Below are positions 2,767 to 50,156 of a stretch of 64,000 bases of DNA, in pieces. Every line of letters begins with the position of its first letter. Position 1 is the stretch's first letter. Source of the DNA: Anaerosacchariphilus polymeriproducens (GTDB lineage: Bacteria > Bacillota > Clostridia > Lachnospirales > Lachnospiraceae); assembly GCF_003363435.1 (NCBI RefSeq), contig NZ_QRCT01000009.1:1-64000 (forward strand). The letters run 5' to 3'. The notes beneath the pieces were generated by a model. The model did not search any database, was not told where the DNA came from, and was given only the letters and a program-made list of their open reading frames with translations. A program made the translations under genes and the position numbers.

Positions 2767-5136
2767 ATGAAAATAAAAAGATTCATAAAAGCAATGGTAA
2801 TTACTCTAAGTACTGTAATGATGTTTGGGGTATCAAGTTTGATGGTTAATGCAGAAGGAGAGGAAGCAAGTGTGACCGAATCAGGTGGGGCAGTTACCTA
2901 CTATGGTACCATGGAAGAAGCTATTACAGCAGCACAAAGCAAAGAGGGCAGTACAGTTTCGTTGTTAAAAGATGTCACTACGGAGAGTAAATTTACGATA
3001 AATTCAGGCACCTTTACGATTAACTTAAATGAGAAAACATGGAGTTATTTAAATAATGGAACCTATTGGATGCTGGAGCAGTTGTCTACAGGAGAAATTA
3101 CTATTGAAAATGGAAATATAACTGGTGGGGCGGTAGTAGAACGGGGAGGTACATTAATTTTTAATAATGTAGACCTTAGTAATGACAATGCTCCTGCATT
3201 AATGTTTCATAATATTAACGACAGTAAAGTGATTTTTAACAGTGGTTCTGTTTGTGCAACAAATTATTATTTTTCTGTGGATATTGCAAAGGTTTATTCC
3301 AAAGACTGCAGTATGCAAATCAATGGAGGAACTTTTTCAGGAGGTAGCAATTCTAATATTAGGGTTGCGCAAGGAGCATATTTAGAAATGACGGGTGGTG
3401 AGATTCAAGGTACATTAGAGGTGAATCGTGCTAGTGCAAAACTTACAGGTGGAAGGTATGGTATGATAAAAGCTGTTACCTGTGGTAACGTAGATAATTT
3501 GTTAGGTGAGGGTTATGTATATCGTTCTACCAGTGAAGGTATGCCTTGGCTGCAAAATACTGCAGTTACTGAAGTGCGTGGCGTCACAGTACAGCAGGCA
3601 CCGATCCAAATTACTGCACAGCCTCAGGGGGCAGCTGTAAGCTATGGTTATGGTGCAGCGTATACATTAAGTGTAACGGCACAAAAGACTGGAACCGCAA
3701 TAGGAGAGATTTTATATCAGTGGTACAAAGTCAAAAGTGGAACGGAAACAGATGATGTAGCAATCGGAACCAACTCTAGTACTTATACGCTTTCTAAGGC
3801 TCTTCCAATTGCAACAGATGATAACTACTATTGTGCCGTTACTTGTGATGGCTATACCGTAAACACAAAAAATGTAAATTTTAATGTCGAAAAGGCTACG
3901 CCCGTTATAAATGTAAATGCAACCATTTCAGGAGAAGTAGGAAGTCGTCAGGCTGAATTATCAGTTGAAGTAAGTCCTGTAGGTGAGGGAATTTATCCTT
4001 CCGGAACATTAAGATTTGTTGACTGCACAAGCGGCAGTGAGGTGGATATGTCAGGTGCAACCGCAGTCAATATGACAGATGGCAAGGCAACCTATACATG
4101 GACGGGACTGGCCGATCAGATTTACAAGGTCAAGGTAGTTTACAGCGGAGATGGAAATTATAATACTGTCACCAGTGCTGAATTTGAAGTTGATACCATT
4201 AAAAAGAATCAATCAGCGCTTACTATAAAAAATATCGGGACAAAGACCTGCGCGGATCGTGCATTCCCTCTTAATACATCTGGTGGAAGTGGTAACGGAG
4301 CAGTTACTTTCACAAGTTCTAATCCTAGGATAGTCAGTATTTCCGGTAATATTGCAACCATTCATAAGATAGGCAGCGTGACCATTACAGCCACTAAGGA
4401 AGCAGATAATACGTACCTTAAAGCGACAACATCTGTATTGTTAACGATTTCAAAGGCGAAGATTGTCAGTGCAACCATATCAGGAATTTCAAGCATGAAT
4501 TATACTGGAAAACCCATAACACAGCTAAAGATGGTTTTGAAAGTAGATGGAAAAGTGTTGAAGAACGGAACTGATTATACCATTACTTATCAGAACAATA
4601 AGAATATTGGTAGAGCAACAGTCATCATTAATGGAAAAGGAAGCTATACAGGAACAGTGAAGAAGAGCTTTAAAATCAAAGTAAGTAAAGGTAAGATTTA
4701 TACAATAAACAATCTTAAATACAAAGTAACAAATGCAGTGTCTAATGGAAAAGGAACCGTAACCTTAACTGGTTCTTCCAAATCAAAATCCCAATTAAAA
4801 GGAACGTTAAAGATTTGTAATACCGTTAAGATTGGTGGAAAGCGTTTTCAGATTACAGCTATCAAAGCAAAGGCATTTAAAGGATACACGAAACTTATGC
4901 AGGTAATCATCGGAAAGAATGTTACTACAATTGGAAACCAAGCATTTTCAGGATGTAAAAATCTGAAGACGATAACCATTGAATCAAAGAAATTAAAGAC
5001 TGTTGAAAAGAATGCATTCAAGAGAATATACAAAAAAGCAGTGATAAAAGTTCCATCAGCAAAGGTAACTGCTTACAAGAAACTATTTAAAAGTAGAACT
5101 GGAATGACAAAAATCATAAATATTAAGAAGAAATAA
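2767..5136 (+). CDS. Large secreted cell-surface repeat protein, Ig-like and BspA-type LRR modules
   Basis: This 789-residue protein starts with a clear signal peptide (KIKR, a hydrophobic stretch, and likely cleavage after VNA at residue 29). Residues about 45-265 look like a beta-helix or pectin-lyase-like region with repeated NGG/TGG turns. Ig-like stretches of the Big/MBG kind follow. Around residues 560-640 there is an MBG/YDG-type module (NYTGKPI, NGTDYTITYQNN, GKGSYTGT). The end, about 690-775, resembles BspA-type leucine-rich repeats (AFKGYTKLMQVIIGKNVTTI, AFSGCKNLKTITI). There is no LPXTG motif or cell-wall-binding repeat, so the anchoring mode is unknown. The RBS AAAGGAAG lies just upstream. 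It is probably an adhesin or surface-display protein controlled by the upstream LuxR-type regulator; the substrate or partner is unknown. Confidence 0.8.
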   Translation: MKIKRFIKAMVITLSTVMMFGVSSLMVNAEGEEASVTESGGAVTYYGTMEEAITAAQSKEGSTVSLLKDVTTESKFTINSGTFTINLNEKTWSYLNNGTYWMLEQLSTGEITIENGNITGGAVVERGGTLIFNNVDLSNDNAPALMFHNINDSKVIFNSGSVCATNYYFSVDIAKVYSKDCSMQINGGTFSGGSNSNIRVAQGAYLEMTGGEIQGTLEVNRASAKLTGGRYGMIKAVTCGNVDNLLGEGYVYRSTSEGMPWLQNTAVTEVRGVTVQQAPIQITAQPQGAAVSYGYGAAYTLSVTAQKTGTAIGEILYQWYKVKSGTETDDVAIGTNSSTYTLSKALPIATDDNYYCAVTCDGYTVNTKNVNFNVEKATPVINVNATISGEVGSRQAELSVEVSPVGEGIYPSGTLRFVDCTSGSEVDMSGATAVNMTDGKATYTWTGLADQIYKVKVVYSGDGNYNTVTSAEFEVDTIKKNQSALTIKNIGTKTCADRAFPLNTSGGSGNGAVTFTSSNPRIVSISGNIATIHKIGSVTITATKEADNTYLKATTSVLLTISKAKIVSATISGISSMNYTGKPITQLKMVLKVDGKVLKNGTDYTITYQNNKNIGRATVIINGKGSYTGTVKKSFKIKVSKGKIYTINNLKYKVTNAVSNGKGTVTLTGSSKSKSQLKGTLKICNTVKIGGKRFQITAIKAKAFKGYTKLMQVIIGKNVTTIGNQAFSGCKNLKTITIESKKLKTVEKNAFKRIYKKAVIKVPSAKVTAYKKLFKSRTGMTKIINIKKK

Positions 5137-45324: not shown

Positions 45325-45613
45325 ATTGTAGTTTTGGATACCTTCTCGAGTAAAGTTGGTATCCCAGTATTTATTGTTGTAAATAGAAATAATTTCACTC
45401 TTTAGGTTATCAGAGAGAGTATGGGCTGGTTTGCGCTCTAAATTGGTATGAATCAATCCTGCCTTTCCTTCCGTAATATATCTTTTTAAGAGGCGTTTGA
45501 TGTGTCGTCTGGAACAACCGATCTTGATAGCGGCATAGTCTTTAGAGATATGACAGACGTTTAATAATTTCGTATTGTTCTTGTGCTTTCATTGATAATG
45601 TAACCTTTCGCAT
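45325..45613 (-). pseudogene. Truncated, frameshifted ISNCY/IS1202-type transposase
   Basis: On the minus strand ATG 45613 (with GGAG upstream) begins MRKVTLSMKAQEQYEIIKRL. After a frameshift near 45545 it continues as IKIGCSRRHIKRLLKRYITE, then HTNLERKPAHTLSDNLKSEI and YNNKYWDTNFTREG. This is the N-terminal helix-turn-helix part of ISNCY-family transposases. The catalytic domain is gone, cut where the iron-sulfur protein gene ends. I found no terminal inverted repeats by eye. Confidence 0.8.
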
Positions 45614-45748
45614 TTGTAGTCTCCTCATTTCATTAGTTATGAGGGAAAAGTATACCATATATAATCCTAATAGGACATAATCATGTGTGGTATATAAAGA
45701 CATTATCTAAAATAGGGTAGAAAAATAGAAATTTATTATTAGAGAATA

Positions 45749-45777
45749 TTGACAAAGTATTAAAATTCGTGTATAAG
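45749..45777 (+). promoter_or_regulatory. Likely promoter of the nonribosomal peptide synthetase gene
   Basis: TTGACA (45749-45754) and TATAAG (45772-45777) are 17 bases apart. The leader to the start at 45862 is about 80 bases. No clear operator is seen. Confidence 0.7.
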
Positions 45778-45861
45778 TATATAATTAATATACCCCCATA
45801 CATTTTCCTGCGTCTTATAGTTTATGTTCAGTAACTATAAAAAAATTAGTGGAGGGATATC

Positions 45862-48800
45862 ATGCGTACAGTTCAGGATACTTTTATAAAAACAAGAGGA
45901 AAAGTAGGGGGGAATGACTTTTGGTTAAATTTATTAGAAGGAGAAATAAAATATTCAAGTTTTCTATTGGTTAATATTAAAAATAAACCAAGTAGGTATA
46001 AGGATTTTAAATTTGAATTTTCCAATAATTTACTTAAGGATTTTGTAAATAAAAGACAAAATTCAGAAATAGTATTACTTTCTGTTTTAAAAGTATTGTT
46101 ATATAAATATACGTCTAATAATGATGTGATAATAATGATACCAGTAAAAACAGAATTAAATTATAACAATAGTAAAAACAAAAGTTTATTTATTAGAAGT
46201 TTTATTCATGAAGATATGACAATGGATGAAATAGAAAATGATTTAAAAATATTATTAAACAAAATATATAAAAATCAGAATATCAATTTAGAAGAAATAA
46301 TGAAAGAGTTGGAATTAGAGCAAGATTTGACAGACATACTATTTGCTTTTAATTACAATGGCATTGAAGATATAGCTAAGAAATCAAATTGTAATATTAT
46401 ATTTAATTTTAATATTATAGAGGATAATTTTATAGTAGAAATAAAATATAATAGTCAAATATATAATGAATTTTTTGTTAATCAATTATGCAGACATTTT
46501 GAATTAGTTTTAGTTTTCGCACTTAATTCAAAATTAGAAAAAGTTAAAAATCTAAAACTAATGAATAATCAAGAAATAAATTTGTATAACAATTTAATTA
46601 ATAGTACTTCTACATCATGGAATTATAATAAGTCTATAGTTGAATTATTTCATGAGCAGGTTGAAAAAAATCCTTTATCATTAGCAATTAAATCCCAAAA
46701 GGTAGAAATTAGTTACATTCGATTGGAAGAAGTGTCCAATAAATTGTCAAATTTATTAATAAAAAGAGGAGTAAAAAAGGGAGATTTTATTCCTATTATA
46801 GCTGAAAGAAGTTGTGAGATGATAGTAGGAATGCTTGGAGTCCTTAAGACTGGATCATGTTTTGTTCCAATAAGTAATAAATTGCCTAAGGAAAGACGTG
46901 ATTTTATACTTGAAGATTGTAATGCAAAAATTGTATTAATACAAAAGAAGGACTTCTTATTTAAAGAAGACAATTATGAAAGTATTGTTTTAGATTTAGA
47001 TAAGAATTCTTTTTTTTTAGAGGAAAAAAATTTCATAGGCGTGTTACCTGAAGGTGAAGATTTAGCTTATGTTCTTTATACTTCTGGTACAACAGGAAAT
47101 CCTAAAGGTGTTTTAATTAAAAATAATAGTGTAGTTAATTTAAGTTATTGGTTTGGAAAAACTTTTCATTTAGATAGTAATAAAAATATTTTACATATGA
47201 CTGATATATCATTTGATGTTTCAATAGAAGAAACTATAGTTACGTTACTAAATGGGGCCCAAATTTTTATTATACCAGAGGAAATAAAATTAAATAAGTA
47301 TTATTTTGAAAGTTATTTAATAGATAATTCGATTAATATAGCTCAATTTGTGCCGGTGACACTACGTGAATTACTTCCCAAGAATAAAAAAATAAGGTCA
47401 TTAGATGTTATTATTTGTGGAGGAGATAAATTGAATTCAAAATTGAAGGATGAAGTATTGAATTTAGGTTATTCTTTATATAATAATTATGGACCTACAG
47501 AAACTACTGTTGATGCAATTTCGACAAAATGTGAAAAAGAATTAGATGTTATTGGGAAACCAATCAGTAATACAGAAATATATATTTGTAATGAATTTGA
47601 AGAAATTTTACCAATTGGAGTAATTGGTGAAATATATATTTCTGGAGTAGGATTATCGGATGGTTATCTAAATAGGAATGAATTGACAGATGAAAAATTT
47701 ATTTTTAATAAATTATTATTGAAAAAAGTGTATAAAACTGGAGATTTAGCTCGTTGCTTACCAAATGGGAATATTGAATTTATAGGACGTAAAGATAATC
47801 AAGTGAAAATAAATGGTGTTAGAATTGAATTGGATGATATAGAAACTAGATTATCAAAATTTGAATTAATTGAAGAAGCAGCAGTAATAACTAAAACAAG
47901 TAAAAAAGGAGATTTATATATATGTGCGTTTTATACTGCAAAGAATGAAATTTCTTCAGAAAATTTTAGAAATTATTTAGGAAAATATTATCCGTCCTAT
48001 ATGATTCCAAAATATTTTATTAAAATTGAAAAATTTGACGTGTCATATAATCAGAAAATAAATAAAAAAAATTTAGTACATATTAAGTTAGAAGTAAATG
48101 ATAATTTATGTATTCAGCCAAGAAATAGTATCGAAAGAAAGTTGATAGACATATGGAAAAACAATTTAGGTGTTGAACATATAGGTATTACGGATAAATT
48201 TATTAATTTAGGTGGAGATTCTTTAATTGCAACATCAATTGTTAATGAAATACAAAAAGTATTATGTAGTAAATTTACATTAATTGACTTTCATAATAAT
48301 ATTAGTATAGTTGAAATTTCAAAAATAATTAATAATTTGGATGAAAAAACATTATTGAAACAATTGAATAATAATATAATTTTGTTAAAAAAAGGCTACA
48401 AGGAAAATCTGAATCTGTTTTTTATACATGCTGGTAATGGTGAGATAGATGTTTATAAAAATTTATCCAAGATACTAAATAATAATTATAACTATTGGGG
48501 TATAAGAGCAAATTGTATTGAAAGTTATTGCCCTATAAATATCACCATACCATTAGTAGCAAGTCAATATATAGAAGAATTAAAAAAAATACAATCAAAT
48601 GGACCTTATTTTATTTTAGGATGGTGTATAGGGGGAAGTATAGCATATGAGATTGCATTACAATTAGAAAGCTTGGGAGAAAAAGTTGAGTTCTTAGGTT
48701 TAGTAAATAGTTTTGCTCCAGATAAGAAATTTTGGGGATCAGTTAGTGATTTTACATTTCAAAGTGAAATAGAGGAAGCTATGAGGTTTATAGGAGAATC

Positions 48801-49230
48801 ATCGATTGAAACAATTTTAGAAAAAAAAGAAAGCATTGAAGAAATTTGGGATTATACAGTTACACTATTGGAAAATAGGAAATTTGATTGTAATCTAATA
48901 AAAAAACGTGTATTAGATGATATGGACAGAGCTATACCTCATTTTAAAGACGTTTTAAAAATAAAAACTATTATATATTACGTTAATATTCTTAGAACTT
49001 TTGATAGAGGTCGAGCATTATATTATCCTAATTCGTTCGTTAACGTATCAATTAATTTTTTTTCAGCATGTTATGAAAGAGCTGCGAATGGTTATAATTG
49101 GAAAAATTTCACGAATAGTAAATTTAATTATTATGAAGTACCTGGAGATAATTTTTCAGTTTTTTTAGAACCGAATGTTCAAATAATGGCAGAGAAAATT
49201 AATCAGATACTAAATATTTATATTTCTTGA
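45862..49230 (+). CDS. Single-module nonribosomal peptide synthetase, partial C - A - PCP - atypical TE
   Basis: A 1122-residue protein. Residues 1-235 match only the second half of a condensation domain (VLKVLLYKYTSNNDVIIMIP); the HHxxxDG half is missing. An adenylation domain runs about 250-735: LYTSGTTGNPKGVL, FDVSIEE, NNYGPTETTVDA, YKTGDLARCLPNG, and NQKINKK with the catalytic Lys. My hand-read specificity positions are D-V-E-Q-I-G-N-V-D-K, closest to ornithine or lysine codes. The carrier domain has GGDSLIA with phosphopantetheine Ser787. The thioesterase fold starts at LFFIHAGNGE, but its nucleophile motif is GWCIGG (Cys922), the Asp position reads LVNSF (Asn949) and the His position GDNFSV (Asn1097). 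It is far more AT-rich than its neighbours. No phosphopantetheinyl transferase is in the window. An EamA exporter follows 20 bases downstream. Confidence 0.9.
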   Translation: MRTVQDTFIKTRGKVGGNDFWLNLLEGEIKYSSFLLVNIKNKPSRYKDFKFEFSNNLLKDFVNKRQNSEIVLLSVLKVLLYKYTSNNDVIIMIPVKTELNYNNSKNKSLFIRSFIHEDMTMDEIENDLKILLNKIYKNQNINLEEIMKELELEQDLTDILFAFNYNGIEDIAKKSNCNIIFNFNIIEDNFIVEIKYNSQIYNEFFVNQLCRHFELVLVFALNSKLEKVKNLKLMNNQEINLYNNLINSTSTSWNYNKSIVELFHEQVEKNPLSLAIKSQKVEISYIRLEEVSNKLSNLLIKRGVKKGDFIPIIAERSCEMIVGMLGVLKTGSCFVPISNKLPKERRDFILEDCNAKIVLIQKKDFLFKEDNYESIVLDLDKNSFFLEEKNFIGVLPEGEDLAYVLYTSGTTGNPKGVLIKNNSVVNLSYWFGKTFHLDSNKNILHMTDISFDVSIEETIVTLLNGAQIFIIPEEIKLNKYYFESYLIDNSINIAQFVPVTLRELLPKNKKIRSLDVIICGGDKLNSKLKDEVLNLGYSLYNNYGPTETTVDAISTKCEKELDVIGKPISNTEIYICNEFEEILPIGVIGEIYISGVGLSDGYLNRNELTDEKFIFNKLLLKKVYKTGDLARCLPNGNIEFIGRKDNQVKINGVRIELDDIETRLSKFELIEEAAVITKTSKKGDLYICAFYTAKNEISSENFRNYLGKYYPSYMIPKYFIKIEKFDVSYNQKINKKNLVHIKLEVNDNLCIQPRNSIERKLIDIWKNNLGVEHIGITDKFINLGGDSLIATSIVNEIQKVLCSKFTLIDFHNNISIVEISKIINNLDEKTLLKQLNNNIILLKKGYKENLNLFFIHAGNGEIDVYKNLSKILNNNYNYWGIRANCIESYCPINITIPLVASQYIEELKKIQSNGPYFILGWCIGGSIAYEIALQLESLGEKVEFLGLVNSFAPDKKFWGSVSDFTFQSEIEEAMRFIGESSIETILEKKESIEEIWDYTVTLLENRKFDCNLIKKRVLDDMDRAIPHFKDVLKIKTIIYYVNILRTFDRGRALYYPNSFVNVSINFFSACYERAANGYNWKNFTNSKFNYYEVPGDNFSVFLEPNVQIMAEKINQILNIYIS

Positions 49231-49250: not shown

Positions 49251-50156
49251 ATGACGAAACAGATGAAAGCAGATATATTTATTATTTTTGTAACTTGTAT
49301 ATGGGGAATGTCGTTTCCGTTAATAAGAAATGTGTTAGTTTATATTTCATATGATCAATATTTAGCTTTACGATTTTTGATTGCCAGCGTTATAATAGCC
49401 GTTATGTTTTATCGTAAATTATTAAGAATTAAGTTATATACTTTAGTATGTGGAGCTATTTTAGGAATTTGTTTAGCTGGAACATTAGGATTAACTGTTT
49501 ATGCCTTAAATTATACATCATCTTCTAACGTCGCTTTTATAACAGGTCTTAATATCGTTTTGGTACCATTGGTATCTGCTATTTTGTTGAAAAAGATTCC
49601 TAGAATAAGCAGTGTTCTAGGAGTTGTTATTGGGTTAATTGGAATCAGTGTACTTGTTGGTGGAGTTAATGTTGGGACAAATATAGGGGATTTGCTGGCT
49701 TTTGCAAGTTCTTTATGTTTGACAGGTCAAATAATATTGATAGACAAATTCAATGAGAAAGGTGATCCTTTAATTCTGGGGATTTTACAAATAATTTTTG
49801 CGGCAATCATATTTTTATTTATTTCATTATTATGGGGACAAGGGATAAAGATAACAGAATTTAATAATACAGTAGTATTTGTAATTGGTTTGACTGGAAT
49901 ATTTGGAACAGCATTAGCATTTGTTGGGCAGACATATGTACAGAAGTTTACCACACCAACACATATTGCAATCATATTTATGGGGGAACCTATTTTTGGA
50001 GCTTTATTTTCATTGATGATACCTGATGATAATGGTGTTACCGAAAAGTTAACATTAAATATGATGATAGGTGGATTATTTATTATTTCAGCGATTATAA
50101 TATCTGAGTTGAATTTGAAAAGTTTTGTATTTAAAAAATATAAGAATACATATTGA
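49251..50156 (+). CDS. EamA-family (DMT) membrane exporter
   Basis: A 301-residue protein with ten membrane helices in two EamA repeats (IWGMSFPLIRNVL near the start; NVAFITGLNIVLVPLVSAIL; HIAIIFMGEPIFGALFS near the end). ATG 49251, with AGGAAGGG upstream, is preferred to 49227. DMT exporters move small amino-acid-like compounds; one member, CntI, is known to export the opine metallophore pseudopaline. It is the second gene of the synthetase operon and the natural exporter of its product. The tetR promoter overlaps its stop codon. Confidence 0.87.
   Translation: MTKQMKADIFIIFVTCIWGMSFPLIRNVLVYISYDQYLALRFLIASVIIAVMFYRKLLRIKLYTLVCGAILGICLAGTLGLTVYALNYTSSSNVAFITGLNIVLVPLVSAILLKKIPRISSVLGVVIGLIGISVLVGGVNVGTNIGDLLAFASSLCLTGQIILIDKFNEKGDPLILGILQIIFAAIIFLFISLLWGQGIKITEFNNTVVFVIGLTGIFGTALAFVGQTYVQKFTTPTHIAIIFMGEPIFGALFSLMIPDDNGVTEKLTLNMMIGGLFIISAIIISELNLKSFVFKKYKNTY

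Follow-up and report, generated by a model that had tools for sequence, protein, structure and literature searches.

Our preferred, although tentative, reading of the gene at positions 45862-49230 (forward strand) is that a single-module nonribosomal peptide synthetase (NRPS) with the order condensation (C), adenylation (A), peptidyl carrier (PCP), and thioesterase (TE) was acquired horizontally, lacks roughly 200 residues from the start of its C domain, and has been kept as an A-PCP-TE protein. The gene lies within a 64,000-nucleotide stretch of DNA from Anaerosacchariphilus polymeriproducens, which was analyzed in full and is called the window herein. The ORF list and Pfam describe a truncated NRPS (half-C/A/PCP/TE) of 1122 amino acids, with matches in the order Condensation, AMP-binding, PP-binding, and Thioesterase. 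A preliminary description of this DNA had remarked that the long frame is intact and that simple decay is therefore not the explanation. For the frame as a whole this holds, since 45862-49230 is a single uninterrupted frame of 1122 codons.

What remains of the condensation domain is a degenerate C-lobe (aa 19-238; 45916..46575, forward strand; Pfam and alignment). The Condensation match to these residues covers only profile positions 196-451 of 456, and the HHxxxDG motif is absent from the whole ORF, exactly as first described. A split N-lobe was sought upstream of the NRPS gene and is present in no frame there. Full C-A-PCP-TE relatives with the same layout, namely the proteins of loci L098 (1336 aa), L168 (1328 aa), and L116 (1323 aa), have C domains that are complete, with HHxxxD[AG] around residue 140. 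In an alignment with relatives, the window protein starts where the N-lobe ends. Because the closest one-module relatives are full-length and carry this motif, we conclude that the window gene has lost the N-lobe. The surviving lobe retains 4 of the 13 residues that are invariant among relatives, is 18% identical to them (compared with 30% among the relatives themselves), and has five in-frame gaps. Its GC2 of 0.14 equals its GC3, as against GC2 values of 0.27-0.29 in the A and TE domains of the same protein and 0.26-0.34 in the C-lobes of relatives. Residues 1-44 are predicted to be disordered, and the full-length structure model (mean pLDDT 58.8) is too poor to judge the C-lobe. From these sequence features, we infer that peptide-bond formation is impossible for the window protein.

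Consistent with the preferred reading, the GC content of the NRPS gene is 24%, versus ~34% in the neighborhood and the window, and that of the next gene (EamA) is 30%. No whole-protein orthologue was found in a genome-contig scan with the full protein or among 397 family, 391 class, and 398 phylum genomes, where the best match is ~35% identical, and plasmid records hold only ~26-30% matches. Just upstream of the NRPS gene, on the reverse strand (45360..45615), is a frameshifted, transposase-like remnant with a helix-turn-helix, spread over two frames whose joined reading matches HTH_28 (E 6e-6). Its location hints at how the 5′ end may have been lost.

The same remnant is a starting point for the main rival explanation, according to which the gene is an early-stage pseudogene: the 5′ end was removed by an insertion sequence event, after which condensation activity was lost, drift set in across the C-lobe, the catalytic His of the TE disappeared, and nothing useful is made. 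Loss of the N-lobe, drift of the C-lobe, the single-base change that cost this copy alone its His (see below), and the lack of a related gene in sampled relatives are all in keeping with this possibility, which we consider serious but doubtful. It must nonetheless accommodate 1122 open codons in an AT-rich frame in which ~10% of amino-acid-changing mutations would be stops, as well as a TE that retains 27 of its 28 invariant positions. It must also accommodate a promoter-like site and a ribosome site located at the new start. The former, TTGACA-17-TATAAG (11/12; 45749..45777, forward strand), has an equal in 32 of 4000 sequences obtained by dinucleotide shuffling of the upstream 200 bp, and five sites as good occur across the whole window; a generic promoter scanner gives no excess in the NRPS upstream region. 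The latter is GGAGGG at 45851..45856 (forward strand), ahead of the ATG. A drifting C-lobe with neither a stop nor a net frameshift, located beside a well-kept TE, argues on sequence grounds that the frame is under selection and that the protein has been kept.

Retention as an A-PCP-TE protein, our preferred reading, is also consistent with the state of the loading domains. The A domain (aa 263-750; 46648..48111, forward strand; Pfam AMP-binding match at aa 263-603) and the PCP (48139..48324, forward strand; PP-binding match at aa 760-821) were delimited by Pfam and alignment. As the preliminary description had held, they look active: motifs A3, A5, A7, A8, and the A10 Lys (Lys732) are all present, as is the PCP Ser (Ser787 in LGGDSL). 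The A domain retains 74 of 93 residues invariant among relatives, and the few that are gone include G731Q next to the A10 Lys, losses that would fit slow decay. The genome has two PPTase-type genes, and loading of an amino acid by the A-PCP portion is likely.

The ten-residue specificity code, read by alignment, is DVETIGNVDK. Basic residues have published codes such as DMEDVGSVDK (Orn/Lys) and DVETLGGISK (Orn-type), and the published Arg cluster reads D-A/V-E-D-I/V/L-G-A-V/I-T/D-K (PMC12283262). The nearest of these published clusters is that for Arg, which agrees at 8 of 10 positions, versus 6 of 10 for the Orn and Lys codes. The original proposal of ornithine or lysine is borne out to the extent that the substrate is likely a basic residue (Arg, Orn, or Lys).

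The TE domain (aa 838-1122; 48373..49227, forward strand; Pfam, model, and fold search) is unusual in its active site rather than in its fold. Its Pfam match spans aa 852-998 (PF00975, 74 bits versus a cut-off of 26.4), and its AlphaFold model is confident (pLDDT 93.1, pTM 0.92). The fold is that of an alpha/beta-hydrolase, with Z scores of 20-26 to many NRPS, PKS, and FAS TEs. In the model, Cys922 of GWCIGG (TGT, 48625..48627) follows strand beta5, Asn949 (AAT, 48706..48708) lies directly after beta6 at acid position I, and Asn1097 (AAT, 49150..49152) is in the loop past beta8, all on the forward strand. These strand positions establish that the three residues, first noticed from the sequence and found at exactly these nucleotides, occupy the true triad positions. 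Therefore, in place of a Ser or Cys/Asp/His triad, the domain has Cys, Asn for Asp, and Asn for His. A substitute histidine elsewhere in the TE is not evident from the family alignment and the model: His856, invariant in the TE family, lies where one of the early core strands ends, and His1027 belongs to the lid and is not conserved within the family.

To place these substitutions, relatives were gathered first from an NRPS-rich Clostridia genome and then by a genome-contig profile search with a ten-sequence alignment. The TE family was defined as the 35 TEs, window copy included, that score above 200 bits with its own profile after duplicates were removed; the other 34 are ~26-37% identical to the window TE. 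Cys922 and Asn949 are common to relatives, and Asn occupies position I in 8 of 10 Cys members but in only 1 of 25 Ser members (Fisher p 1.6e-5 over 35 TEs, with related sequences counted as independent). An independent-pairs test of the association has no power because it contains only two supported pairs, and the poorly resolved TE tree is compatible with Cys-Asn arising once or several times. The window TE shares both the Cys nucleophile and the position I Asn of a Cys-Asn branch, but not its His. Among the nearest members of the family are the NRPS of Acetivibrio alkalicellulosi (L096) and those of L098 and L168, which have the Cys-Asn pair, GWC[IL]GG, and the C-A-PCP-TE order in common with the window protein, but differ from it in their retained His and full C domain.

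In contrast to the other two residues, Asn1097 is private to the window copy within the TE family. All 34 other members have His after beta8, and the change from His to Asn requires a single base (CAT to AAT). Because Cys-Asn is common among relatives and His is present in all 34, the three apparent anomalies reduce to one private change. The preliminary description had listed all three substitutions as departures from the expected triad; only the His loss sets this copy apart, and the Cys and Asn are normal for relatives. It had also named orthologues with a normal triad as evidence that this copy is a decaying outlier; the relatives are normal in this sense at the His position only. Elsewhere in the domain, the window TE retains as many of the 28 near-invariant positions as its relatives do.

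The coupling of Cys to Asn across the TE family suggests that papain-like Cys-His-Asn release chemistry exists in NRPSs, of which we found no report in a non-exhaustive search of the open-access literature. The window copy, which has no His, then offers a natural experiment on how many of the triad residues a thiol nucleophile requires.

A thiol, unlike serine, can attack a thioester without a histidine base. Perhaps, then, the window TE is an active cysteine catalyst that dispenses with His, in which Cys922 attacks the carrier thioester directly. Among 81 aligned TEs, all four that lack His (the window copy and those of L140, L154, and L173) have Cys, and none of the 58 Ser TEs lacks His (Fisher p 0.005, with related sequences counted as independent). 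Also, the remainder of the window TE is conserved, and the L173 enzyme arrived at Cys-Asn-Asn independently. However, only three lineages are represented and related sequences are not independent, L140 and L154 are difficult to align around the His loop, and the triad of SulM, itself a Cys TE, still includes His (PMC11298585). We therefore judge an active catalyst of this kind unlikely. A broader form of the idea, that Cys-nucleophile, His-less NRPS TEs of at least three lineages constitute a class that releases products by thiolate chemistry and that the window enzyme is a working single-amino-acid releaser belonging to it, seems to us somewhat less likely still.

Of the other His-less enzymes, those of L140 (TE at 3062-3925) and L154 are Cys-type TEs from Deltaproteobacteria MAGs with Pro in the His column, and that of L173 (3-956) is a Cys-Asn-Asn TE from a Bacteroidia MAG. 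Plasmid relatives of L140 were considered as further examples and were rejected because His is present in all five that were read.

A Cys nucleophile on an alpha/beta-hydrolase fold is likewise found in the SulM TE (8W2C) and ObiF1 TE, and the preliminary description had raised the possibility of an altered catalyst resembling ObiF. Both SulM and ObiF have a Cys-Asp-His triad whose Asp follows beta7 (PMC11298585). By analogy, the window TE might make a beta-lactone or beta-lactam with its acid moved to position II, for which Glu1072 (49075..49077, forward strand; model and by-eye alignment) is a candidate. In the model, this residue is three residues past beta7, near the second acid position of SulM and ObiF, and by eye it aligns with Glu in L096 and with Asp in L098 and L168. 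Yet the window TE lacks the His, and the C domain is dead. SulM is 10% identical to the window TE and ranks 48th among the structure matches listed (Z 20.8, versus 25.6 for AB3403 and 25.5 for the human FAS TE), and no ObiF chain is among the matches listed. This proposal is weak, and we find it highly improbable.

A closer counterpart is AB3403 of Acinetobacter baumannii (PDB 4ZXH), which has the same C-A-PCP-TE order as the window layout. Among the matches listed, it is the best match to the window TE by both sequence and fold (rmsd 3.2 over 231), and the human FAS TE and Pks13 TE are also among the nearest solved structures. AB3403 has Cys in a GWCFGG motif that resembles the GWCIGG of the window TE, but its C domain is whole and its TE has both a position I Asp and the His.

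Another way to account for a TE fold retained without its His is that the domain is structural and that the A-PCP portion, whose signatures are intact, loads a basic amino acid for use by another enzyme. The preliminary description had similarly entertained a partner that finishes the product. No candidate partner came to light. The genome has no stand-alone C domain, no transferase adjoins the NRPS gene (Pfam), and the only complete C domain resides on another contig in an unrelated bimodular NRPS of 2462 aa with a conventional Ser-Asp-His TE (G000:C12:266446-273834; L093 4450-11835). A role as an aminoacyl-carrier donor is thus very unlikely.

If the truncated protein is instead kept as an A-PCP-TE enzyme, as we tentatively favor, then its A domain would activate a basic amino acid, whether Arg, Orn, or Lys, and load it on Ser787. 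With no His to raise a thiolate or to activate water, the TE would at best perform slow aminoacyl transfer to Cys922. The product might then depart by uncatalyzed hydrolysis or, in the case of Orn or Lys, by attack of its own side-chain amine to give a lactam. Release would thus fall to the His-less TE, proceed uncatalyzed, or fail altogether, and by the window protein it is probably poor or uncatalyzed. The adjacent gene (49251..50156, forward strand; ORF list and Pfam), which begins 20 bp past the NRPS stop and has its own ribosome site, encodes an EamA-type 10-TM transporter that could possibly export the putative product.

Several full-length relatives reside in a genetic context that the window gene lacks. 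An operon composed of genes for an NRPS, a 7TM histidine kinase (HisKA_7TM), and a REC-DUF3369-HD-GYP regulator is conserved in many Clostridia, including at L096 (3207-12155), L098 (4812-12197), L168 (4863-12215), and L116 (4067-11433). The kinase gene is directly downstream of the NRPS gene in all four, and PF16927 is present in the three kinases scanned. The window NRPS gene is outside any such operon, and has neither the kinase nor the HD-GYP regulator that follow the L096, L098, and L168 genes. A 7TM kinase partner for the window gene was rejected because the HisKA_7TM genes of its genome sit on other contigs, and a relative of the operon kinase is absent from both loci checked in this genome (C15 and C12).

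A kinase search over the 391 class genomes yielded 18 with full-length relatives (E <1e-100). The NRPS gene is directly upstream of the kinase gene in 13 of these, and in two more the upstream ORF, at a contig edge, matches the C-terminal portion of NRPSs of this kind. For the remaining three, the kinase gene is instead preceded by a gene that matches the N-terminal, PilZ-bearing part of the Acetivibrio NRPS. This PilZ-containing region of ~550 aa corresponds to aa 1-550 of the 1886-aa L096 protein, and a stand-alone gene for it precedes the kinase gene in L223 (4179-5828, reverse strand), L224 (3818-5482), and L227 (3111-4775), with 28-30% identity. Perhaps c-di-GMP controls the NRPS through this region. 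The operon probably specifies a signal made by the NRPS together with the sensor for it, and c-di-GMP would be the output. In this regard, it resembles the Vfm system of Dickeya, for which sensing of an NRPS product by a dedicated two-component system has been proposed (PMC9306890). We found no report on point in the literature on NRPSs with HD-GYP proteins or 7TM kinases. Some operon NRPSs carry a C-terminal release-type domain of ~400 aa (L217 5264-6472, with homologues in L215, L216, L218, and L192). This domain has no Pfam match and resembles PigE and SbnB weakly, but it matches PDB 9E4S, an 'amino acid adenylation domain protein', with an E value of 4e-93.
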